Shown here one piece after another: positions 11,268-42,360 of a DNA stretch of 52,777 bases. Position 1 is the first letter of the stretch. Every line of letters starts with the position of its first letter. The translations under genes were made by a program, and so were the position numbers. The notes beneath the pieces are model-generated. The model had not been told where the DNA came from. It did no database searches and worked only from the letters and a program-made list of their open reading frames with translations. The stretch is from a virus: positions 1 to 52,777 of IMG/VR virus record IMGVR_UViG_3300036716_000305. The stretch is one strand, 5' to 3'.

Positions 11268-13379
11268 ATGACACCAGAAGAATTAGAAAGATTAAAGATG
11301 GAAGGTATCAAAGGATATCTTTCAGGAAACCTCTCACAATCAAGAACAGCTGAGATTTCAAATGCTGTACAAGAAGGTTCGGTAAAACAAGTAACCAGTC
11401 AAACCTCAGCATTTGATCTAAGCCCAGAAAACAGATTTACACCAATGATTGCAGCACAAGCTAATAACAAAGGTGTGAACACAGAAAACCTTGAAACAGG
11501 GAAAATATCTGATTCAATATTTGACCAGATAGGAAAATGGTGGGACGGAGATAAGGCAACTAGTGCTGTAGCAGAATCTCAACCAACGTTTCGACTTAAC
11601 CCAGAAGCAAACAGAGCAGCATTTGATGCGTTGAACGAAAAGTATCCATCAGCTAACTTTAATATGTACCTCCCGGATGTAGACTGGTCTAGTCCAGAGG
11701 CAGAGGCGAAGTTTCAAGCTACTGTTCCAGATAACCTTGCAGTAGACCCTAGAGGGACAAAAGAAGGTATAGTTGTCAATACTACTAACGCTGAGTCTGA
11801 GTTGGTAAACCCTAGAGTCACGGCAAGACAGAACGTTCAAGAAAGAGACGCAGCTGTGAAAGCGGATGTGCAAGCATTTGAAGACGTTTTTGGAGAGAGT
11901 GGCGGTGATGTTCGTGCAGAATATAATGAACATAAAGACACTATTGAAGCTCTAAGCGGACTACAAGAGAGATATAATGCTCTGACCCCTGCTCAACAGA
12001 AAGGTCGTGTTGGATTGGGATTATTAAAGAGGATTGAAGACCTTTCGGTTAATAAAAGCGAAATAGAAGAAAGTATTTTTGAAACTGAAGAGGCTGTATA
12101 TTCTACTAAGGTTGATACTAAGCAGAAAGAAGAAGCCAAACCAGCGGCCACAAAAGAAGAGGTTTATAGCGGTTTAGGCGATGCAGCAAAGAGCTATCAA
12201 GTTCACACCGACGCAGGTGATGCTGAGGGTCAGGCGAATGTTGAAAATGGAATCATTAAAGAGATCGAGAGAAACAAAGGCGACGAAGGCTTCTTAGACA
12301 AACTAAACTCTTGGATTGTAGATAACCCTGCATTAGCCAGTGGTATCGGAAATGCCCTTGTTGGTTTTATTTCAACAGGTAGCGCCTATAAAGCTTTAGG
12401 TCTTGGTATTCAAGGCTATATAAATGGTGTTGGCAAGGCTGACGCAGACAAGAAGGCATGGGACAAGATTGGTAGAGACTTGATGATTGATGATGGAGCC
12501 ACACCGGCTTCTGTCAAGAAATATCTAAAGACTCAGAACATTGAGGACCTTGTATTCTCTAAAGCGCCTCCTGAGATTAAATCAGACTCTCACGGCTCTA
12601 AGTGGGTTGGCGGAAGAAGGTATGAGTTTTGGAATACCCAGCAAGGTATATGGATTAGAAACCCTAATGGAACAGGTTATATTCCAGCAAAGTATTTGTC
12701 TGAGGACTTTCAAAGGTATCCAGACTTTGACAAATCAATACACACAAAGAAAGGTAGAGATGAAGCTCAAAATCAATATGCCAAGGAACAAGCCAACATT
12801 GTAAGCAATGTTATGATAGATTCTGGAGTGCCAACTCATAAGGCAAACGCTCTTCATACAAACCATATTGGAAACGCAATAGATTCGCTACGCACAGCAT
12901 ACGGGCTTGACTTTACAGACCCAGCAACCAGAAACGCTGCTGGCATGGCGATGCAGAGCCATGTTAACTCTGAGGCCGCTAGGTGGCATACCTTTAAAGA
13001 TAAGCACGATGAAAAGGAATATCACAAGTTCAAGTGGGATACTAACTATAAAGCCGCTATTGAGAAAGGGATGATTAAACAGCAGCTTGCTAGTAACTCT
13101 CTTCCACAGGAGATATTGCTTAACAAGGATGGCGAAGTTGACAAGAAAGGTACTTCAAAGTTGTACAGGAAGATTAACAACTTTATTAACCACCCAGACA
13201 ACAAAGGAAAGACGCAAAACCTTGGTTCTGCAATTAAAACCATTTATAACGAATGGGTTACAGAGGTTCATGGTGGAAACAAAGAAAACGCTTTGAAGCA
13301 CAACAAGGGAGAAAGTGCATTTTTAAGGTGGGCTGATGAACACGCAGACTTTGTGATTGAACCACCTGAAGACAAATAG
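11268..13379 (+). CDS. Internal virion (ejection) protein, 703 residues
   Basis: A long, mostly helical protein rich in Glu, Lys, Asn and Ala with no signal peptide. A short hydrophobic stretch (ALASGIGNALVGFISTGSAY) lies near residue 360. A GSKWVGGRRYEFWNTQQGIW segment near residue 445 is the only aromatic-rich part. Size and order (glycine-zipper protein, this, 1341-residue protein, 1023-residue protein) parallel the T7 gp14-gp15-gp16 block, so it is likely a T7 gp15-like core protein. No catalytic motif is visible. Confidence 0.6.
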   Translation: MTPEELERLKMEGIKGYLSGNLSQSRTAEISNAVQEGSVKQVTSQTSAFDLSPENRFTPMIAAQANNKGVNTENLETGKISDSIFDQIGKWWDGDKATSAVAESQPTFRLNPEANRAAFDALNEKYPSANFNMYLPDVDWSSPEAEAKFQATVPDNLAVDPRGTKEGIVVNTTNAESELVNPRVTARQNVQERDAAVKADVQAFEDVFGESGGDVRAEYNEHKDTIEALSGLQERYNALTPAQQKGRVGLGLLKRIEDLSVNKSEIEESIFETEEAVYSTKVDTKQKEEAKPAATKEEVYSGLGDAAKSYQVHTDAGDAEGQANVENGIIKEIERNKGDEGFLDKLNSWIVDNPALASGIGNALVGFISTGSAYKALGLGIQGYINGVGKADADKKAWDKIGRDLMIDDGATPASVKKYLKTQNIEDLVFSKAPPEIKSDSHGSKWVGGRRYEFWNTQQGIWIRNPNGTGYIPAKYLSEDFQRYPDFDKSIHTKKGRDEAQNQYAKEQANIVSNVMIDSGVPTHKANALHTNHIGNAIDSLRTAYGLDFTDPATRNAAGMAMQSHVNSEAARWHTFKDKHDEKEYHKFKWDTNYKAAIEKGMIKQQLASNSLPQEILLNKDGEVDKKGTSKLYRKINNFINHPDNKGKTQNLGSAIKTIYNEWVTEVHGGNKENALKHNKGESAFLRWADEHADFVIEPPEDK

Positions 13380-13402: not shown

Positions 13403-16400
13403 ATGGCAAACATTAATCTAGCAGCGCGTGATGACACCTTTATTGATACAGAGGTTGGCAAATATGCCTTTATTGATAACGATACAATTAAAAATGATGA
13501 GGGACACTCTGTTAGACTAAAAGGCTTAGCAGGTCCAGAGACATCAAAGTTTCTTAAGCACGATGGACTGTTTGGCGATGAGTACTCTATATCTTCCGGT
13601 CAATACAAGGGAGACCTTAAGACAAAACAAGTAGGTCAGATTGCAAATGAAGGTGGGTACAACAAGCTTGTACTCACTGGCAATCAAACTCATGGAAGAG
13701 ATGAGGGTGACCTTGTGAACGAGGAGGGTCAAACACTCTCTGACAGGCTTATATTCGAGGGCATTATTGACCCAGCAACTAATGAGGGCCTAAAGAAAAG
13801 CGAGCTTGGAAGAATACATAGAGCATTAAGTGGCGAAGGTGATGACATATACTCTCAGGCACGTGCAGAGGAAGCTCAGAAAGATAGAGAGCAGTTTATT
13901 GGCTGGAAAGGGCAAGCCATTGATGAACAAGACCTTATGGAGTACAATCAAGCAAGAGGCTTGGTCTCTGACGGTACTTGGGGTCAGTATGTTCAAAACT
14001 CAGTTCAATTCAGGTCTAACGATAGAGATATAAACAACCAAGCAAACAGTGCATTCTCTACAGGTCTTGAATCAGGTCTTAATAACATCGCCTCGTCTGC
14101 TTATGGCTTTGCCAGCCTTATTGGAGATATGGTTAATAATGAAGAGTTGTTCGACTGGGGTCAAAGAAATGCAGAGCATTATGAGATTGAGAATGAACAG
14201 TTAGGTCATTATGTAAATACTATTGGAGATGTTGATAGTCTTGTAGACTTTGGAAGATACACAGCTGGAATGTCTGGACAGATGATTCCGTATCTTGTTG
14301 GCTTATTTGGCGCTACAGTTGGTGGTATTGCAGTTGGTACTGCTACTGGTGTAGCCGCTCTAGGAACAGGTATAGCTGTTGGTATCCCTTCAATTATCTA
14401 TGCTGGTGAATCATACCAAGGAATGGAAGGAGACATGACTGAGCGCGGTGTTGGCTGGGCTTTGTCAGCAGGTGTTGCTGCGACTCTTTTAGATAGGGCT
14501 GGACTAAGAGGTATGCTAGATGTTAAAGACGTCTTGTCAAAAGATATTACTGAGCAATTAGTAAAGTCATATGCAGCTAAACAAAACATACCTGTAGATA
14601 AGGCAAGAACATTTTTACAACACCAAGCCAATGCAAGAGTTGTTAGTGCTTATGCAAAACTCAATGGTATTGGATTCGCTGAAGCTAAAAAGAAGATTGG
14701 AGACATAACTGCTGACATTCAACAAGAATTGATTAAGTTCTTAGGAGACAAGGCGTCACTAACACTTAACAAAAGACTTTTGGCTAAGCAAGCAGCTAAA
14801 TCTTTTGGAACTTCTGGTGTTAAAGAGTCATTCACAGAGATGGGTCAAGAGGGTTCTATATACGCATCACAGGTTTTAGGTTCTCAAAAAGAATTTAATT
14901 CTGACGAGTTGCAAGACATCCTTATAAACTCAGCTACTGGTGGCTTTATACTTGGTGGCGGCATTGGTGGATTCCACGGAACTGGGTCATCTTACGCTAA
15001 ATTTCAACAAGCCAAAAGAAACATAAGTGTTTCAGATGGGTTTCATGATAGAAACTTTTATGGAAACAACACAGAGGTTAACTATCAGACTATAGTTGAT
15101 CTGGCTGACAAGGAGTTTGAAAGAATCAAGGCAGAAAATCCTGATGTAGATATTGATGTTACAAAAGAAGGTGAGAAAGATTATAAAGAGGGAACTCTAC
15201 TAGACTCTGTTAAAGAGAAAGGCGTAGTTAAAACAGCCAAAGAGTTTCCCGGTAGGTTTGCTAGAAAGTTTGGTGAGATTATTCAAGATAAGGCAGACGG
15301 CCTGTCTGATGACGCCAAGTTTACTTTGTTTACATTGCTAGATAACTTTGCTCCATCTAATACATCACATATGGCTGGAGTAAACTTTGGAAAGCTAAAA
15401 AGATCTTTGATTGGAAGTCTGAATAGAGAGGTTGGTAATATAGAAGCTAAGCTTATTGCCAAGATAGGAAAGAGGGTCAACAAAAAGTCTAAGCAAGATG
15501 TTTCTGATATGCTAGTTGCATTTCAAAGACTTCAAGAGAAGAAAGGTGAAGAGCCACTTACTGCTAAAGACCTTCCTGAGAATCTTAAGCCACATTTAGA
15601 TGAATTGCACGATGCTAGCAATAAGATAAATCAAGCCACAGACACTCTTCTTCAGATTGTTGAAAGACAAACAGGTACAAAGGTTGGAAGACAGGGTAAT
15701 TACTTTAGTAATGCTGTTCAGTTAGATATTGATAAGATAATCAAAAAGAAAGCTAAGTTCATTCAAGATGTTTTAATAATTCATTTAGGAATGACTCAAG
15801 CTGACGCTTTGCAGTTTTATGATGACCTTGTTAACAGTCCTAAAGGGTACGACCCAGAAAAGCTAAAAGAACTTGGGTTTAAAAACACATCAGGTCCTCA
15901 GAATCTAAAGAGAGCAAATGCTGGTCTTAAGAATTTTAAAGATATTGATGAGTTTACTTATGACAATAAGTTTGACCAGTTGGTTGGTATAGTTGAGAAC
16001 AATATTAACTACGCCATTGATACTAAGTATCTTGGAAAGAACAATGAGAAGTTAGACAAGGCTCTTCAGGTGCTTAAACAACAGATGGGAGACCAGTGGG
16101 ATCCTAGAATTGCAACTTGGATTAAAGATTCAATTGCTGCTGAAAGAGGTGATTACAAGCCTGTTAAGAATAAGTACCTAAGAGAAATGCAATCTTGGAT
16201 ATCTTGGTATAACGCCACTACTCAGCTAAACACAACTCTTCTAGCGTCACTACCAGAGCTAGGTATGGTTATGTTTGGAAAGAGAGCTAAGTCAAACAAC
16301 GAGTTAATATTAGACGCCACAAAAGGTGTTAGTGGTAAATGGTTGCATGACTTTAGAAGAATGAAGTCTAAAGTTCTTAAAAACTCTGGCTTCAGTGAGG

Positions 16401-17428
16401 AGAGTGAGAATAGAGCTGTAGAAGATTTTTACAGATATCAATACGCTCACGGCTCTCAAGGTGCTGTAGCTCAGTTTGATATTGAGATGGGTAATGGCAG
16501 GTCTAGGAAGTTTAGAGAGAAGACTTTAGAGGCTTTCTTTAAGCTTAACCTCCTAGGACCATTTACAGACGGAACTCGTATCGCTCGACTAGCTATGGCG
16601 GTTGATGCCATCTTTAGTGATATAGAGATTATGATAAATCACTACAACGGTTCCCAAAGGGTTTCCAATTATGCAGCTGACGCTTTTGCTAGGCTGAGAG
16701 ATTTAAATGTAAATCCTACGGATATCTCTAAAAGGTATGATAAGCTTGTAAATAATATGAAGAATGACCCTATGGTCGACAAAACAGACGCACAGTCTAT
16801 TCATGAGTATATCGTAAAGAACGACCCAGAGTTGTTAGAAATACTAGATATTGCACGTAAAAGTTACGTTGACAACGCTCTAGCAAACCCTAACCCTGTT
16901 GACAGGCCTTTATGGTATTCTAATCAGCACTTTAGATTGATGACACAGTACAATGGTTTTCTTTCAACATTTTCTTCTCATATTCTACCAAGAGTGTGGA
17001 GAGAGATTAAGCAAGGAAACCCTTCAGCAAGATACAACGCTGTAGCTGCTGTAGCTGGTATGATGGCTCTTGGTTTTATTGGTCAGTCACTTAAAGATGA
17101 GGTTGATAGAGAGGGTGAAACACCTGAAACTTTAACTGAAATGGGATTCTACCAGAGAGGAATAACAGCATCAGGCTTGTTAGGAACTTCTGAAAGGTTC
17201 TTAAACATTGTCCACCCTTTATATAGGTCTTATGAAACAGTTCCAGAACAAATGTTTGATGAGATTGCAGGACCAACATCTGGATCTGCTGGAAAGATAT
17301 ACAGGGCTTTAGAAACAATAGCTGAAGGTAACAACCTAAGGCCAGTGCAATACGGTAAGTTGACTCCTTATGGATCCACTTTGAACTCGTGGAGCAATAT
17401 AGGAAACAATATCATTGGAGATAAATAA
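13403..17428 (+). CDS. Giant internal virion protein with SNase-like N-terminal domain
   Basis: This 1341-residue protein has a domain at about residues 20-125 resembling a staphylococcal-nuclease OB fold: DTIKNDEGHSVRLKGLAGPE followed by GRDEGDLVNEEGQTLSDRLI and FEGIID. The usual catalytic arginines are not clearly kept, so it may be inactive. A strongly hydrophobic segment at about 290-335 is rich in Gly and could insert in a membrane. A second Gly-rich stretch (GGFILGGGIGGFHG) lies near 515. The rest is helical. It probably enters the cell with the DNA. It overlaps the next gene by one base. Confidence 0.65.
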   Translation: MANINLAARDDTFIDTEVGKYAFIDNDTIKNDEGHSVRLKGLAGPETSKFLKHDGLFGDEYSISSGQYKGDLKTKQVGQIANEGGYNKLVLTGNQTHGRDEGDLVNEEGQTLSDRLIFEGIIDPATNEGLKKSELGRIHRALSGEGDDIYSQARAEEAQKDREQFIGWKGQAIDEQDLMEYNQARGLVSDGTWGQYVQNSVQFRSNDRDINNQANSAFSTGLESGLNNIASSAYGFASLIGDMVNNEELFDWGQRNAEHYEIENEQLGHYVNTIGDVDSLVDFGRYTAGMSGQMIPYLVGLFGATVGGIAVGTATGVAALGTGIAVGIPSIIYAGESYQGMEGDMTERGVGWALSAGVAATLLDRAGLRGMLDVKDVLSKDITEQLVKSYAAKQNIPVDKARTFLQHQANARVVSAYAKLNGIGFAEAKKKIGDITADIQQELIKFLGDKASLTLNKRLLAKQAAKSFGTSGVKESFTEMGQEGSIYASQVLGSQKEFNSDELQDILINSATGGFILGGGIGGFHGTGSSYAKFQQAKRNISVSDGFHDRNFYGNNTEVNYQTIVDLADKEFERIKAENPDVDIDVTKEGEKDYKEGTLLDSVKEKGVVKTAKEFPGRFARKFGEIIQDKADGLSDDAKFTLFTLLDNFAPSNTSHMAGVNFGKLKRSLIGSLNREVGNIEAKLIAKIGKRVNKKSKQDVSDMLVAFQRLQEKKGEEPLTAKDLPENLKPHLDELHDASNKINQATDTLLQIVERQTGTKVGRQGNYFSNAVQLDIDKIIKKKAKFIQDVLIIHLGMTQADALQFYDDLVNSPKGYDPEKLKELGFKNTSGPQNLKRANAGLKNFKDIDEFTYDNKFDQLVGIVENNINYAIDTKYLGKNNEKLDKALQVLKQQMGDQWDPRIATWIKDSIAAERGDYKPVKNKYLREMQSWISWYNATTQLNTTLLASLPELGMVMFGKRAKSNNELILDATKGVSGKWLHDFRRMKSKVLKNSGFSEESENRAVEDFYRYQYAHGSQGAVAQFDIEMGNGRSRKFREKTLEAFFKLNLLGPFTDGTRIARLAMAVDAIFSDIEIMINHYNGSQRVSNYAADAFARLRDLNVNPTDISKRYDKLVNNMKNDPMVDKTDAQSIHEYIVKNDPELLEILDIARKSYVDNALANPNPVDRPLWYSNQHFRLMTQYNGFLSTFSSHILPRVWREIKQGNPSARYNAVAAVAGMMALGFIGQSLKDEVDREGETPETLTEMGFYQRGITASGLLGTSERFLNIVHPLYRSYETVPEQMFDEIAGPTSGSAGKIYRALETIAEGNNLRPVQYGKLTPYGSTLNSWSNIGNNIIGDK

Positions 17429-20400
17429 TGTCAAAGTTTAATATTAATCTAGGATTAAGGGATAAACAAAACCTTAGTGCAGAGAATGTGGCAAGTGCCA
17501 ATGCAGTGCTGGAGAGGATGAGCCGAACAGCCTCAGCAAAGAACCCTCAGGATGATGCTTATGCAGGTCTTGAGGGGACTGAGGTTCCATATAGTGAAGA
17601 GCTTAACAATGTGCTTACTAGGACTGTTAATAGAACAAAGAAAGACTTACCAACAGATGACCTTGCTCAAAACCCAGCTGTCTACGCTGGGACGCTCAAT
17701 CAAATCAATCAGGCAGAGGATAATCTTAACACTACAGACCTTGGCATTAACCCCTCAAGCGACATCAAAGGTCCTTTTGCTGAGGGTGCAAACCAATCTC
17801 CTGAGGAGGCTCTTAATACAGCAGCCGCTGGGAACTTAAGAACTATGGAGACCGGTGAATGGGTAGAGAATTTCGCACCTGAGTGGACTGGTCAGTCTAA
17901 GGCGCTTATGCACGACCAAGTAGAGTCGTTTCTTGGCTACTCTGCTGAGGTAAACAAAAACGCTCAAAAGCTGTCAATTGGGTTAACAGGGCCTCAAAGA
18001 ATAGCGTTTAGTCGGAACTTGGCTGAAGAGAACGGATTAGACCCTAACTCTGTTGGTGAATACCTTAATGGATTTATTGTAAACTACGCACACCTTCAAG
18101 AAAAGGGCGTACCTCAAGCTCTTACAGATATCCATATGGCTGCGATGCTACACGTTGGTATGGAGAACAAATGGATGTCTGCACAGACTAAAGAACAAAG
18201 GGATGTCTTACAACCCGGACAGGTTGCTGTAGACTATGAAACTGAGCTTGGAGCGTCATCTCGTACAGATGAAAAGGTTGGTAGGTTAATACACAAAACA
18301 CTTGGTATTCAATCTGACTCAAAGATGGACGTGATTGGAGGAGCTATAGCTAGAAAGCTAGTTGTAGATACTCATGGTGGTGATAAACTATGGGGAGTAG
18401 CCAGAATAGCCACATCCAAAAGAGATGATCAAGGGGTTCAGCATACAGCAAATGTTTCTGTTTTAACCAGAGAGGGTGTTGCTAAAGCCAAGTCGATGAG
18501 GGGATTGATTGAAACAATGATACCGTCAACCCTTAAAGAGCCTAGGTTTACTCGTACAGAAGAGCCAGCAAACTTTGTAAGGCCATCTAAAGGAGATCCA
18601 AAGAAAGACTATGGAAGGTTTAAGTTTGTAAACAAAACCATAGATATTCTTGATAACACACCCGGAAGAGCGTCAACGCTTGTAGCTAATGTTCTCAATA
18701 TCATTCAAGATACTAAAGCCTTTCAAGAAGAGGGTTTCTTAAATATCAAGAAAGATGGAAAGGGCGGAGAGAAGACTGTTCAACTGGATGAGGCTACTGG
18801 ACAGTACAAGCCATACAAGGGTAACGAGATAAAAAGAAGAGCTGCAAACAATGAGATAGCGTTCGCCTTTCATATGAACAATGCCTTTTCGTATAATGAC
18901 CACTTCTTAGGGACTAACAACAGGTTCTATGCTAGAGGCGTTCATTTTAACGGAGCTAGTGTTGGAAACTATCAGGCAACCAAGTCCGCTAGAGCTATGC
19001 TTGAAGGGCTCCCTGTCGAGTACAATATAGATCCAAACCCAGCAGGAAACAGCAAAGATGGAAGTAATGATCTTCAGAATCTTAAGGCTGGAATCATGAA
19101 GAAGTTTGGAAAGCCATACAGTACAACACGATATGGAGTTAGAGAAGCTGCAATGGTGTTTGATAAGAGGGTTGCATACTGGGCAGAGTTAATGAAAGAT
19201 GATGCCGCTATCCATCAGAACAAAGAGGAAATTGCACAAGAAGCTATTAGAGAGTTTGCAGATGAGCATAACAATAAAGGTGAGGGCGAAGGCTACATGG
19301 CTGTTAGTGCAATGGTTGAGGCCGTTAAGCTTCACCAAGCTATGCAGGTAAACAAAAATAGAGCGAGAGCTGGCCAAAAGGCACTTACTTATCGGTCTGG
19401 TTTTTATACAGAGATTGATGGTATCGCTAATGGTATTGGTCATAATACATTACAAGGTGGTGGGTCTGAGCTTATCCAAAGGGCGGTTGGACTATACTCT
19501 CCAAAAGAGTTGGCGCAAGTTGCAAAAGATGTTAAAGATGGCATTCACAACCCTGATGATGTATATGAGTTAACAACGGATGGTGCTATAGCGGCCTTAA
19601 CAAGCAAAGGTTGGAACGATGAAAGACAAGCAAAGGTAGATGCAGTTCTTTCCTTGTTCACACTTGACCGTGGTTTCGGTAAGAAGCCAATGATGATCTT
19701 TGGTTATGGCGCTCGTGAGGCAAGGATACTAGATGCTGTTGGTGATTGGGTTGATGAGCAGATAAACAAAGACCCTGATTTGGCGAGAGCTATCGCAGAC
19801 TCGGGTGTTATTAACTTGGAAGATGTTAAGCAAATTCTTGGATGGGGAGCTAACAGCGCTGTAGAGGAGACGTTCACATCTGTCAAGCTTCTGAATTCGT
19901 TTATGCAAGAAACTGCACAGATTGCAATCAATGCTGGCTTAGAACCTTGGTTTACTATGAGAGAGGGTCATCGCATTAACTTTGGTGAGTTTATAGATGA
20001 AATAATCCCGGGCGCAGGAATTCCTATAAGATATCAAGAGGGTAATAGGGTAGGAGACGACATGAATGTCACAGCCTATCCTAGATTTAGAGGTATTCAG
20101 GGCAAGAGTAACAAGTCTGTTACACAGGCTGGAGTTCTTCCAACACAGGCTCAGGATGGTATTAATATCGGAACCTCTTTTCAAAACATGGAGAGATACT
20201 TCGCCAAGCGTGGTAATGCTAGAAAAGGAGCTGGAGGTCACCAAGTGTTTGATGGTATCTTTATGACACCTAAAGACGCTCCAAAGTGGGCAAAAACTCT
20301 AAATGATGACTTTTACGACATCAACAAAAGCTTTAGTTTTGCTCAAGAGTTTTACGACCAGTTGATGACTGAAGCAGCATTTAGAAATGCAGACAAAAAG

Positions 20401-20499
20401 GGGATTTTAGGCATGTTAAATGCAATTAATAACGCTAGAAGATCTGTGCTTGGTAGAGTTAGTAAGGAAAATGTAAGACAATTCTATTGGGACCATTAA
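17428..20499 (+). CDS. Putative virion-packaged single-subunit RNA polymerase
   Basis: This 1023-residue protein stands last in the ejection-protein block, where T7 has gp16. Its C-terminal 540 residues carry every catalytic motif of the T7/N4 polymerase family in order: motif T-like GTNNRFY (R499), motif A IDGIANGIGH (D664), motif B RGFGKKPMMIFGYG (R748, K752, M756, Y760; spacing identical to T7 R627, K631, M635, Y639) and motif C QVFDGIFMTP (D942). After motif C about 81 residues remain, compared with 71 in T7. DxxGR and the His of HDS are altered, as expected for a very divergent member. Like N4 vRNAP it probably travels in the capsid and makes the first transcripts; packaging is inferred from position. 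Confidence 0.75.
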   Translation: MSKFNINLGLRDKQNLSAENVASANAVLERMSRTASAKNPQDDAYAGLEGTEVPYSEELNNVLTRTVNRTKKDLPTDDLAQNPAVYAGTLNQINQAEDNLNTTDLGINPSSDIKGPFAEGANQSPEEALNTAAAGNLRTMETGEWVENFAPEWTGQSKALMHDQVESFLGYSAEVNKNAQKLSIGLTGPQRIAFSRNLAEENGLDPNSVGEYLNGFIVNYAHLQEKGVPQALTDIHMAAMLHVGMENKWMSAQTKEQRDVLQPGQVAVDYETELGASSRTDEKVGRLIHKTLGIQSDSKMDVIGGAIARKLVVDTHGGDKLWGVARIATSKRDDQGVQHTANVSVLTREGVAKAKSMRGLIETMIPSTLKEPRFTRTEEPANFVRPSKGDPKKDYGRFKFVNKTIDILDNTPGRASTLVANVLNIIQDTKAFQEEGFLNIKKDGKGGEKTVQLDEATGQYKPYKGNEIKRRAANNEIAFAFHMNNAFSYNDHFLGTNNRFYARGVHFNGASVGNYQATKSARAMLEGLPVEYNIDPNPAGNSKDGSNDLQNLKAGIMKKFGKPYSTTRYGVREAAMVFDKRVAYWAELMKDDAAIHQNKEEIAQEAIREFADEHNNKGEGEGYMAVSAMVEAVKLHQAMQVNKNRARAGQKALTYRSGFYTEIDGIANGIGHNTLQGGGSELIQRAVGLYSPKELAQVAKDVKDGIHNPDDVYELTTDGAIAALTSKGWNDERQAKVDAVLSLFTLDRGFGKKPMMIFGYGAREARILDAVGDWVDEQINKDPDLARAIADSGVINLEDVKQILGWGANSAVEETFTSVKLLNSFMQETAQIAINAGLEPWFTMREGHRINFGEFIDEIIPGAGIPIRYQEGNRVGDDMNVTAYPRFRGIQGKSNKSVTQAGVLPTQAQDGINIGTSFQNMERYFAKRGNARKGAGGHQVFDGIFMTPKDAPKWAKTLNDDFYDINKSFSFAQEFYDQLMTEAAFRNADKKGILGMLNAINNARRSVLGRVSKENVRQFYWDH

Positions 20500-30582: not shown

Positions 30583-33015
30583 TCAACAGAAGAAATAATC
30601 TGAATCAACGACCTTTGAGATATCCAGTCTTCCTAGTTTAGGAGGGTGTTCTGTATATCCAATACCAGCCATATCTTTTCTTATATGACCAAATATATCC
30701 CTATCGTACATATTGATAAAGACGCTCTTTGTTACTCTTACTAAGTCTTCAACATCATCTGCATGGACACTATAAGAATCATGAATAGCGCCAAACGATG
30801 TAATACCCATATCATGTAGTTCATTAATGACCAGTGACATATGGCTAGCATCCATGCTGTGAACGTAGTTGGGGCTTATCCCACTCATTACCTCATGTAT
30901 AGCTGGTATTTCAGTTTGCTCTCTATAAACTAAAACGATCTTTTTGTTTTTGTAGAACAATGATACATCCTTTTGTCGAGTTACCCACTTCTCAGATATA
31001 ACTGGGAAGCCACTGGGAGTTGACCAAGTAACACAACTATGCCCCTCATCTTTCATTACATACTTCACAACAGATTGCAGGTAGTTCTTAATAGCTACTG
31101 GGCCACTACATATAGTGTTGTATGTATCAACCAAGTCCTTACTAAGCTTTCTAGCGATTGACTTTGTTATTCCATACTTTGTGGTCATCCCGGCATTGTA
31201 GCAGTCTGTATAGATAATGTCAGCGATACAGTTGACTCCAGCATCGTATGCCTTGGTCATAGACCCACGCTTACTAATTCCTTTACGAATCAGCTTCATC
31301 GGTATCTTAGCCAAGACAGCGCCCAAGTCAGTACCAATATTTCTATTGATAATTCCTTTGGCCACAATGATGTAGAAGTCTATCGGCTTATCTTTAGGTA
31401 TTAAACCGACCATACCGCCAGACACCTCATCTCTACTCATAGCCGCTAGATGTTGTGTTCCGTTTGAACTTCCATCTATGGATATTGGTAGTCGTGTGTA
31501 GTATTCATCACCAGACAACAAAGAACCATGATAGGCACAAACTTCAAAACAAAGGGACAGAAATACCCAAGGTTTCTCAGCATCCATCCAAATGTCTTTA
31601 TTCTTTAATGGATCTTCAGCAATATCCCATAATAACTCGATATTCTCTTCAGCCCATCTAAACCTGTCATTTAGCGACATTTTGTCCACACTCAGGTCAG
31701 GTATTCCATCAGCCTTAAGGTCTGTCACATAGTCAACCTCGAGCCAATCAAGCTTATTCAACTCATTAATCGTATATGATTTGTTGAAACTGTTGGCTGT
31801 GTGGATCATCATCCACCTATAACCTTTGTCAGTCATTAACCTCTTCTCATTGAACATTAAATGCCCTCTGGCAAGGTCGCTAGACTGATATGAAAAGAAC
31901 GGGTCTTTAGCATATATACGCCCTCTAAAGTCTAAAAACATAGACTGATAGAAAGAGTACGATGCCCAGCCACTAGGACCATTAATAGTCTCTAAGATTG
32001 CCTTATCTCTAGCTGCTTTGGATTGTTTGGCTAAGCAGTATTGCTTTGCTATCCAATTCTGATTATGAGCCTCAAACAAGACTTCTGTCTCTTTGATTTG
32101 CTCCTTAATCTTTAAGGCAACCTTTCCACCATCCTTTAAAGACCTTACTCTTCTGAAGAGTTTATTCAATTCAGACTCAATAGTCTTAACTGTTGTGGCG
32201 TTTCCCTTTTCTGGTTGGAATATCGCTCCATCCTTGTACAGGTCTACACCAATCAATTGTTTATTGAACGAGCCTCTTCTGATGTCTCTTACATCAAACA
32301 CCCTGTCTTTATTATTTATATCTTTAAGAACTATGGTGGTCGAGGTAATGTCATCCTCTAAAGACTCTGAGACTCTTGCAACATCTGGATTAACAATCCA
32401 TTTGACAGATTCAAGGTTGTTGACCGCCTTTACATATTCAGCCTTTGATTCTATAGTGTTCACCTTAGACTTAACAAGCTTACTTTTAATACCACCTACC
32501 ATGCGCTCGTTGGACTCCCATTGGGGGTACTTGTAGAGGCTGATACCAGACCGTTCTTTCTCGATAAAGCTAATATCCATGAAGTTGACACCCATCTCTA
32601 AATGATATGGCTGTAATCTTAACGTTCTTGTGATATTGTTCGACTTTATCTGCTCTAATGTAAAGTACGGCTCTCTACCCATTACTAAGTAGTCCGCAGA
32701 CACTAGTCTTGTTAGTATTAGCCAACCAAGCCTCATCCTATCGTCAGATGATACATCTAGAGACAGGTTGTCTTTTACAATACCTCCAATAACCATGTTG
32801 GCATTTGTTAGCATTATGTGTCCATCATGCCTCCTGAATTGCCCAATTAGGGCGAGGAATGAATCTTTAACAATATTGAACATTCTAAAATCATCTCTAA
32901 GGCATTTTGCATTCCTGATGATCTTACATGCAATGTTATTATTGTTGCGCTTGTGCATAACGTAGTCTTCTACGATCCACACAATCTCTTGAATTTCATT
33001 TCGATTGTCTTGCAT
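30583..33015 (-). CDS. T7-like single-subunit RNA polymerase
   Basis: This protein (810 residues from the ATG at 33015, which follows AGGGTGG) has all T7-family motifs: DFRGR (362-366), motif A IDGSSNGTQH (D514), motif B KGISKRGSMTKAYD (K582, M586, Y590) and motif C IHDSYS (D746), with about 65 residues after it. Two positions differ from T7: the motif-B Arg627 equivalent is Lys578 (Arg577 next to it), and Gly640 is Asp591. It is the last early gene, followed directly by its likely promoter. It should transcribe middle and late genes. An upstream TTG start would add 17 residues. Confidence 0.93.
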   Translation of the reverse strand: MQDNRNEIQEIVWIVEDYVMHKRNNNNIACKIIRNAKCLRDDFRMFNIVKDSFLALIGQFRRHDGHIMLTNANMVIGGIVKDNLSLDVSSDDRMRLGWLILTRLVSADYLVMGREPYFTLEQIKSNNITRTLRLQPYHLEMGVNFMDISFIEKERSGISLYKYPQWESNERMVGGIKSKLVKSKVNTIESKAEYVKAVNNLESVKWIVNPDVARVSESLEDDITSTTIVLKDINNKDRVFDVRDIRRGSFNKQLIGVDLYKDGAIFQPEKGNATTVKTIESELNKLFRRVRSLKDGGKVALKIKEQIKETEVLFEAHNQNWIAKQYCLAKQSKAARDKAILETINGPSGWASYSFYQSMFLDFRGRIYAKDPFFSYQSSDLARGHLMFNEKRLMTDKGYRWMMIHTANSFNKSYTINELNKLDWLEVDYVTDLKADGIPDLSVDKMSLNDRFRWAEENIELLWDIAEDPLKNKDIWMDAEKPWVFLSLCFEVCAYHGSLLSGDEYYTRLPISIDGSSNGTQHLAAMSRDEVSGGMVGLIPKDKPIDFYIIVAKGIINRNIGTDLGAVLAKIPMKLIRKGISKRGSMTKAYDAGVNCIADIIYTDCYNAGMTTKYGITKSIARKLSKDLVDTYNTICSGPVAIKNYLQSVVKYVMKDEGHSCVTWSTPSGFPVISEKWVTRQKDVSLFYKNKKIVLVYREQTEIPAIHEVMSGISPNYVHSMDASHMSLVINELHDMGITSFGAIHDSYSVHADDVEDLVRVTKSVFINMYDRDIFGHIRKDMAGIGYTEHPPKLGRLDISKVVDSDYFFC

Positions 33016-33037
33016 AGCTACCACCCTATATAATGAA

Positions 33038-33196
33038 TTATTTGTCTTTCTTGTTAAAGGCGTCAATAACCCTTATTGGATTTACTTCCTTACCTCGCCT
33101 AGTATCTCGCCACTCATATGTGTAGCGTTCTTTACCTGTCACCGACCAATACACATCTGACTTAAAACCATCCCAAAGATCTTTGAAGAAGCTCAA
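33038..33196 (-). CDS. Small unknown protein (TTG start)
   Basis: A 52-residue product beginning (TTG)SFFKDLWDGFKSDVYWSVTG and ending VIDAFNKKDK. TTG overlaps the upstream TGA (TTGA) and follows GGAGAG six bases earlier, so coupled translation is likely. The sequence is aromatic and basic. It precedes the RNA polymerase gene by 22 bases. Function unknown. Confidence 0.55.
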   Translation of the reverse strand: MSFFKDLWDGFKSDVYWSVTGKERYTYEWRDTRRGKEVNPIRVIDAFNKKDK

Positions 33197-40606: not shown

Positions 40607-40842
40607 AGCACCCCCCATCGCTCTAGTTGAGCCTCTGTGAAGTCTCCATACTTGCCAAATGCCTTCAAGTCATGGCGAAATTGAGCTTCCTCCATCTCTT
40701 GGGTTTCGCTCAGTATCAACAAGAGCCTTTCTATCTCAGACCCTTGTTGACCCTCTGTCAAGTACTCAAACCACTCACAAACCTCTTCGCTTGGTCTGGA
40801 CAAGTGTACTTCTTTCCAGCAATCACTAAACATATTAAACAT
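40603..40842 (-). CDS. Unknown 79-residue protein
   Basis: MFNMFSDCWKEVHLSRPSEE... is acidic and helical (LLLILSETQEMEEAQFRHDL) and ends LERWGVL. Its ribosome site GGAGGTG lies in hairpin cassette A copy 1. Function unknown. Confidence 0.55.
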   Translation of the reverse strand: MFNMFSDCWKEVHLSRPSEEVCEWFEYLTEGQQGSEIERLLLILSETQEMEEAQFRHDLKAFGKYGDFTEAQLERWGVL

Positions 40843-40909
40843 AACGCACCTCCAGTGCTAAAGTAAACGATAGAGACTGCTCGTTAGAACAGCCTCGACT
40901 CTTACTCTA
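40843..40909 (-). repeat. Hairpin cassette family A, copy 1
   Basis: Leftward the unit begins with the stop codon (TAGAGTAAGAGTC), has a 10-bp stem (GAGGCTGTTC/GAGCAGTCTC, loop TAAC), then TATCGTTTACTTTAGCAC and GGAGGTGC, the ribosome site of the next gene. Two G-U pairs work only in leftward RNA. Confidence 0.8.
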
Positions 40910-41164
40910 TCCAATCCCAAAGTTCATTGAACATATGAACTTATAAATAGCTGGCTGAGACTTGCCATTAGGCCAGATCTTAGTCATCTTAAAGGACTGT
41001 GTGTATGGCTCTTCTTTCATGAACCATTTACGAAACGCAACGCGTCTCTTTGGTGAACTATCAAGTTCCTTAATCCACTTAGGATTAAACACCTTAAACT
41101 CAATTAAGGATTCGCCCGACTCATGGTGTGTTGCACCTGTCATTTCATAGCTTTCTTCTAACAA
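40907..41164 (-). CDS. Unknown 85-residue protein (TTG start)
   Basis: (TTG)LEESYEMTGATHHESGESL, then basic segments (FNPKWIKELDSSPKRRVAFR). TTG at 41164 is six bases after GGAGG in cassette A copy 2; an ATG seven codons later lacks such a site. Its stop codon forms the first bases of cassette copy 1. Function unknown. Confidence 0.5.
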   Translation of the reverse strand: MLEESYEMTGATHHESGESLIEFKVFNPKWIKELDSSPKRRVAFRKWFMKEEPYTQSFKMTKIWPNGKSQPAIYKFICSMNFGIG

Positions 41165-41230
41165 TTTGCACCTCCGTGCTTAAAGTAAACGATAAAGGCT
41201 ACTCTATGAATAGCCTTGACTCTTACTCTA
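41165..41230 (-). repeat. Hairpin cassette family A, copy 2
   Basis: Same plan as 40843-40909: TAGAGTAAGAGTC, a 9-bp stem (AAGGCTATT/AGTAGCCTT), TATCGTTTACTTTAAGCAC, then GGAGGTGC. Stem bases differ from copy 1 but pairing is kept. Confidence 0.8.
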
Positions 41231-41413
41231 CAACTCATGCTCTAACCCATACAGGCCAGACTGCTTATGTTTCCTTGTATATGAGCCTTTGACTCCAAAT
41301 ACAAAGTCAATATAGGCGGCTATGTGTGCTGAATGACTAGTGCAAGATCTGTACTTATCAAACGCACATTTAGCTTGTTGTAACGCTCTTTCTTCTCTTT
41401 CTCTATGTAACAC
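41228..41413 (-). CDS. Unknown 61-residue protein (GTG start)
   Basis: (GTG)LHREREERALQQAKCAFDK then AAYIDFVFGVKGSYTRKHKQ. A basic, partly helical product. GTG is seven bases after GGAGG in cassette copy 3. The ribosome-site/start sequence GGAGGTGCATTGTG is complementary to the loop of the early terminator (30468-30489). Function unknown. Confidence 0.5.
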   Translation of the reverse strand: MLHREREERALQQAKCAFDKYRSCTSHSAHIAAYIDFVFGVKGSYTRKHKQSGLYGLEHEL

Positions 41414-41486
41414 AATGCACCTCCGTGCTTAAAGTAAACGATAGATACTACTGGGTCTCAGTCCAATAGTATCGACTCTTACTCTA
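41414..41486 (-). repeat. Hairpin cassette family A, copy 3
   Basis: TAGAGTAAGAGTC, an 11-bp stem (GATACTATTGG/CCAGTAGTATC), TATCGTTTACTTTAAGCAC, GGAGGTGC. GCAC-GGAG-GTGC is itself a small hairpin that shows the ribosome site in its loop. Confidence 0.8.
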
Positions 41487-41765
41487 AATATGACCACCAC
41501 GCACACCCTTGCTACCACCAGCAAAACCATACGCACACTCAAGACTATCCCAAGCCTTAACATCCTCAGAGAGGAAGTCAACACAGACAACCCACTCCAT
41601 GAACATCGAAGACCCAACACCACACATAGCCTCAACCATGTGGTAAGCCTCGTCCTCAGTGCCAGCCTCAACAACAATCTCCTGACCAAACTTGTACTTC
41701 CATACAGGGTTAGTTGCATCGCCATAGTTCTCTTCTACCTGTGTAATTGCTTTATATGTGTTCAT
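41484..41765 (-). CDS. Unknown 93-residue protein, first early gene
   Basis: MNTYKAITQVEENYGDATNP, then FGQEIVVEAGTEDEAYHMVE, later FMEWVVCVDFLSEDVKAWDS and a Gly-rich basic end (GFAGGSKGVRGGH). The strand-helix-strand layout is compact. It is the gene nearest the control region and so likely the first transcribed after entry; such genes often counter host functions, but no evidence for that is seen here. Confidence 0.55.
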   Translation of the reverse strand: MNTYKAITQVEENYGDATNPVWKYKFGQEIVVEAGTEDEAYHMVEAMCGVGSSMFMEWVVCVDFLSEDVKAWDSLECAYGFAGGSKGVRGGHI

Positions 41766-42024: not shown

Positions 42025-42360
42025 GTACTATAAGCTGACCTTTGGGAAGCAAAGACACTGAGTGTACTTAGTGTACTTGAGTGTGCTTGTATGTACAATG
42101 TATGTACAATGTATGTACCATTGAGTACCCTTGGGGTTAAACATACGTACACCACACGCACCATCAGTACACCATGATCCCTACAGTAACTCAGCGAATA
42201 CAGTGTACCTTATGGTGATAATGTACCCACAATGTACCCACAGTACCCATCTGTACCCATCTGTACCTATATGTATCATGCGACCTTTGGGAGCAGTGTG
42301 ATCTTAAAGTACTGTGTGTACCTATAAGCCGCCATCCGTCCTGTTAGTCATCGATCGTAC
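42025..42360. repeat. Dense, helically phased GTAC array
   Basis: GTAC occurs 18 times in 336 bases, against about one or two expected by chance. Most spacings are 9-11, 18-22 or 38-39 bases, that is one, two or four helical turns. Local forms are TATGTACAA (twice) and TGTACCCA (several). Likely a protein-binding array such as an origin or regulator site. Confidence 0.75.

Follow-up and report, generated by a model that had tools for sequence, protein, structure and literature searches.

Virion-packaged single-subunit RNA polymerases (RNAPs) are a hallmark of the Schitoviridae, in which they are tied to a giant multi-domain chain. N4-like virion RNAPs (vRNAPs) were reported only from N4-like phages and prophages, almost always fused to a metallopeptidase (PMC5512222), and in N4 the labour is divided between the vRNAP for early and RNAPII for middle transcription (PMC4496689). 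A large IMG/VR survey of N4-type vRNAPs dropped all hits below 2,500 amino acids (aa) (PMC10654107), so that compact vRNAPs would have escaped it. Here, we analysed the IMG/VR virus record IMGVR_UViG_3300036716_000305 over its whole length (52,777 bases; the window), which comes from a marine phage, and in it the 1023-aa protein encoded at 17428-20499, which an initial annotation had described as a divergent single-subunit RNAP distinct from a T7-like enzyme of the same phage. We consider it likely that this protein is an active, compact and stand-alone RNAP of the N4 virion type, built of a core and an N-terminal extension, which would be packaged and would serve early transcription. Direct support at the level of sequence comes from homology, catalytic residues under constraint, a two-polymerase arrangement, a position in the ejection block and the absence of cysteine.

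The open reading frame (ORF) is intact, and the seven residues named in the initial annotation (R499, D664, R748, K752, M756, Y760 and D942) all lie where it had placed them.

17428..20499, plus strand: putative compact virion-type single-subunit RNA polymerase; intact ORF with ATG start, 1023 aa, 0 cysteines
18922..18924, plus strand: codon of R499 in a T/DxxGR-like motif; aligns with T7 R425 and N4 mini-vRNAP R424
19417..19419, plus strand: codon of D664 in motif A, inside EIDGIANG; aligns with T7 D537 and N4 mini-vRNAP D559
19669..19710, plus strand: motif B with R748/K752/M756/Y760/G761; T7 R627/K631/M635/Y639/G640, N4 R666/K670/-/Y678/G679
20251..20253, plus strand: codon of D942 in motif C, inside FDG; aligns with T7 D812 and N4 mini-vRNAP D951

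Motifs T, A, B and C, with their catalytic R, D, R/K/Y and D, follow one another in the order that defines the single-subunit RNAP superfamily. In the profile alignment, all seven named residues stand in T7 register and six of them also in N4 mini-vRNAP register; M756 pairs with T7 M635 but lies opposite T674 in the N4 enzyme, and the pairing of D942 with N4 D951 requires either a permissive realignment threshold or global mode. The T7-like spacing noticed earlier was reproduced, with 190 residues between K752 and D942 against 181 between T7 K631 and D812, and tails of 81 and 71 residues. The local sequence is N4-like (EIDGIANG, KKPMMIFGYG, FDG).

Could these motifs be chance matches in an ordinary internal virion protein? 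In favour of this, neither BLAST against the phage collection nor the pattern scan of IMG/VR found a match for the window protein. By itself it does match PHROG 414 'RNA polymerase' (E 2e-4, residues 646-838), and relatives were reached via the portal protein and then via the family profile and the neighbouring gene. A homologue is present in at least 12 further IMG/VR contigs; no relatives turned up in the bacterial genome collection. Among eight distinct full-length family proteins, all match phrog_414 (best 4.2e-26), four match Pfam PF00940 (RNA_pol; best 2.4e-13) and two match phrog_2206 'virion RNA polymerase' (1.4e-10); plain tblastn links one homologue to an N4-like vRNAP (E 3e-4), and another matches annotated phage RNAPs (E 6e-7). 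These matches to curated RNAP models, together with the profile-profile comparison given below and its negative reversed and shuffled controls, refute chance resemblance at the sequence level, and we give it hardly any credence.

Aligned with one another, the eight proteins, which are 23-29% identical to the window protein, share only 58 invariant positions out of 1023. All seven residues, which had been named before any homologue was known, are among them (chance about 1e-9), including D664, K752, Y760 and D942, whose presence in homologues the initial annotation had made a test of its claim. This conservation also bears on the idea that the polymerase fold has lost catalysis and survives as an ejection protein with a structural or DNA-gripping role, which would suit a phage that already owns a full T7-like RNAP and a sequence that is very divergent. 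Since all catalytic residues are invariant despite such low identity, we regard a dead fold as quite improbable.

Is the core nearer to N4 or to T7? Ten Schitoviridae vRNAPs, trimmed to the N4 boundaries given in PMC12633501, were compared by hhalign. The compact family matched the vRNAP core at 99.0% (E 2.6e-18) and T7-like RNAPs at 98.4% (E 4.4e-15), and T7-like RNAPs matched the vRNAP core at 80.8% (E 1.3e-5); reversed and column-shuffled controls stayed at or below 1.3%. The vRNAP signature ExDGxxxG (PMC10654107) is found at motif A of the window protein, of 5/8 family members (it is missing from G003, L052 and L054) and of 10/10 giants, and in 0/8 T7-like enzymes. In a tree of 26 cores, the compact family and the giants split from the T7-like enzymes at 100/100, and the giants form a single clade, again at 100/100, with the compact proteins outside it. 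The ancestry of the compact form is not settled by this tree because its branches are long and it is rooted on T7-like enzymes alone. Judged by these comparisons, the core is closer to N4 vRNAP than to T7 RNAP. The likeness to T7 drawn earlier holds as homology and close spacing, but the nearest relatives are the N4-type virion RNAPs.

N4 gp50 and its Schitoviridae homologues (LUZ7, pVa5, pYD6-A and others) share with the compact proteins the core register, ExDGxxxG in most members and the FDG motif C; they likewise contain no cysteine, have their gene at the end of the virion block and occur in phages with a separate T7-type RNAP. They differ in size, with 3095-3537 aa against 1023-1215 aa in the compact family, and the 1023 residues of the window protein lie far below the range of N4-type giants (about 2,800-3,800 aa). 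The N-terminal (~1000 residues) and C-terminal (~1400 residues) modules of N4 gp50 have no counterpart in the compact RNAP, and Pfam scans of the window protein and its family revealed no fused metallopeptidase domain. The T7-like RNAPs (T7 gp1, the phage's own enzyme, PHROG 414, PF00940) have a homologous core with the same catalytic residues at close spacing, but are farther from the compact family by the tree, contain 9-14 cysteines in the family phages and are encoded in the replication block rather than the virion block.

The phage's own T7-like enzyme, given in the initial annotation as 30583-33015, is real and lies on the minus strand; 33015 is an internal ATG, and the frame extends to a TTG.

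30583..33066, minus strand: T7-like RNAP, 827 aa from TTG, 810 aa from the ATG at 33015; 10 cysteines

It matches PF00940 at 2.3e-73 and phrog_414 at 2.1e-113. Besides the compact RNAP, every family contig checked encodes a T7-like RNAP of about 820 aa. Two RNAPs per contig match the N4 division of labour. The pairing of a packaged compact RNAP with a T7-like enzyme had been put forward as what would be a new arrangement: we found no earlier description of a compact stand-alone vRNAP in the literature searched, in which subscription journals were scarcely covered, but this phage is not alone in having the arrangement, which at least 12 other IMG/VR contigs share.

The placement of the gene at the end of an ejection-protein block is borne out by gene order in the window and in its relatives. 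Two further genes of this block lie directly upstream.

11268..13379, plus strand: further ejection-block protein, 703 aa, 0 cysteines; equivalent position in relatives
13403..17428, plus strand: ejection-type protein, 1341 aa, 0 cysteines; PHROG virion structural protein (9.5e-15)

The 1341-aa gene overlaps the start of the RNAP gene by one base, and its homologues (1300-1540 aa) stand directly upstream of the RNAP gene in every family contig read, preceded in turn by a gene of 700-815 aa. In all of these contigs, the virion block ends with the compact RNAP gene, which faces the replication genes; the vRNAP gene of N4 and its relatives closes the virion block in the same way in the ten Schitoviridae examined. 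Cysteines are absent from all compact family members, from both neighbours and from 10/10 giant vRNAPs. Gene order in several phage lineages, cysteine absence and the two-RNAP arrangement suggest that the compact RNAP is packaged in the virion.

An active second RNAP might instead stay unpackaged, being made late and serving a late class of genes, with early or middle genes left to the T7-like enzyme. The position of the gene in the late block and its intact catalytic residues would fit this, the virion location being our inference. We think it unlikely, because no member, giant or virion neighbour contains the cysteines found in the cellular T7-like RNAPs, because the coupling to an ejection-type partner gene is invariant and because the closest relatives are packaged enzymes.

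For a compact, packaged N4-type RNAP, we propose that the enzyme would be made late with its upstream neighbours, be packaged as an ejection protein and enter the host with the first DNA. Once injected, it would transcribe the earliest phage genes, which would include or lead to the T7-like RNAP, and the latter would then take over the remaining genes. Catalysis, packaging, injection and early timing are the parts of this scheme that we infer. Several points weigh against it. Other virion proteins of the window also lack cysteine, so that this absence marks the virion class and is not proof of ejection; packaging is argued solely from gene order and composition. By hhalign, the compact RNAP matches neither the N- nor the C-terminal module of N4, which leaves the packaging route unexplained. 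The scan for N4-type C-GNA-G hairpin promoters gave 0 in the window, while the first 8 kb of N4, our positive control, yielded exactly 3, and the promoter signal of the compact RNAP probably differs from that of N4. Finally, the AlphaFold model of the compact RNAP is of low confidence (pLDDT 35.7) and provides no structure. Its top PDB match, a chain from a mitochondrial transcription complex, had prob 0.80 but E 0.14; this model and that of the CRP-7-type gp33 discussed below (both pLDDT ~36) were unusable, and fold searches made with them were given no weight.

Does the arrangement extend to a cultured phage? Gp34 of Roseobacter phage CRP-7 (PMC6918029) is a homologue of the 1341-aa protein (hhalign 100% between the families). 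In the slot next to it, gp33 is a hypothetical protein of 1235 aa without cysteine, and its family carries D, K, Y and D collinear with motifs A, B and C. Against the compact family, gp33 gave no significant score (hhalign 2-18%, controls 0.1-0.5%). As in the window phage, CRP-7 has a separate T7-like RNAP (gp30), and the published account annotates ORF30 alone as RNAP (PMC6918029). Judging from motif order and gene position, gp33 is probably a more divergent compact RNAP. The best BFVD match of the low-confidence window model was A0A646QWN9, whose 1235 residues equal the length of gp33. The putative vRNAP of StenR_269 and its Zobellviridae counterparts (PMC10747016) are likewise products of large, cysteine-free internal-protein genes in a vRNAP-like position; that proposal was built on size, cysteine absence and helicity, not on polymerase motifs, and is set beside the compact RNAP by description only. 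We tentatively suggest, as a possibility that we hold with some doubt, that a widespread marine podovirus lineage reaching to CRP-7 injects a stand-alone compact RNAP, the unfused and possibly older form of what became the giant gp50 of Schitoviridae when flanking modules were joined to it; injection of an RNAP would then predate the giant architecture or have arisen independently of it.

If the compact RNAP is packaged, the N4 strategy would be possible without a 3,500-residue protein. A natural version of about 1000 residues from outside the Schitoviridae would open long-standing questions to test: which parts of the 3,500-residue chain are required for packaging, for passage through the ~35 Å channel during ejection or for autoinhibition by the C-terminal domain (PMC12633501), and whether an ancestral compact enzyme gave rise to the giant form by fusion. 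The family would also supply small cysteine-free polymerases, maybe with unusual promoter rules, and it reveals the size cut-off in vRNAP searches (PMC10654107) as a blind spot.

Regarding the upstream neighbours, the 703-aa protein found no family match in PHROG/Pfam-type library scans. The family of the 1341-aa protein has a DGDT...VR...ET pattern at its start, and one member reaches Pfam SNase (E 0.0053); it is possible, from these sequence features, that this is an ejection protein with a nuclease-like domain. By hhalign, the 1341-aa protein weakly matches the N-terminal domain of N4 vRNAP (41.8%, E 2.7e-4, region ~385-530; controls at or below 0.4%) and does not match the C-terminal domain. 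The former match is suggestive of the missing part of N4 gp50, an identity that we do not claim. A structural protein of KPP25 shares one stretch with the 1341-aa protein; judged from the annotated gene list, with no profile test, no obvious separate compact RNAP lies beside its gene.

Elsewhere in the window, a two-tier stem-loop occurs in three copies ahead of small genes.

40837-40912, minus strand: two-tier stem-loop, first copy
41159-41233, minus strand: two-tier stem-loop, second copy
41408-41489, minus strand: two-tier stem-loop, third copy

The flanks are conserved (TAGAGTAAGAGTCRA ... TATCGTTTACTTTAAGCAC-GGAGG), and the inner stem of 10-11 bp varies in sequence with its pairing kept; the RNA folding z of the copies ranges from -3.2 to -5.1. 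These elements are candidates for a promoter or an RNA-processing site; a search of loci retrieved from relatives did not recover their conserved tail. At 42086-42300, the large intergenic gap that precedes the small gene upstream of terminase contains tandem 11-nt repeats with TGTACA palindromes, and GGGTACA repeats, which are iteron-like and possibly mark a replication origin. The region 20552-42164 contains primase, helicase, ribonucleotide reductase, ThyX and exonuclease genes; no DNA polymerase gene was found among its ORFs scanned against family libraries, the record maybe being incomplete or the gene unscanned. At 117-2722 there are two radical-SAM genes (PHROG 1802, E 4.7e-51 and 4.6e-31) upstream of the tail genes; roughly 1.3 kb separates the two, and small ORFs lie between and alongside them.
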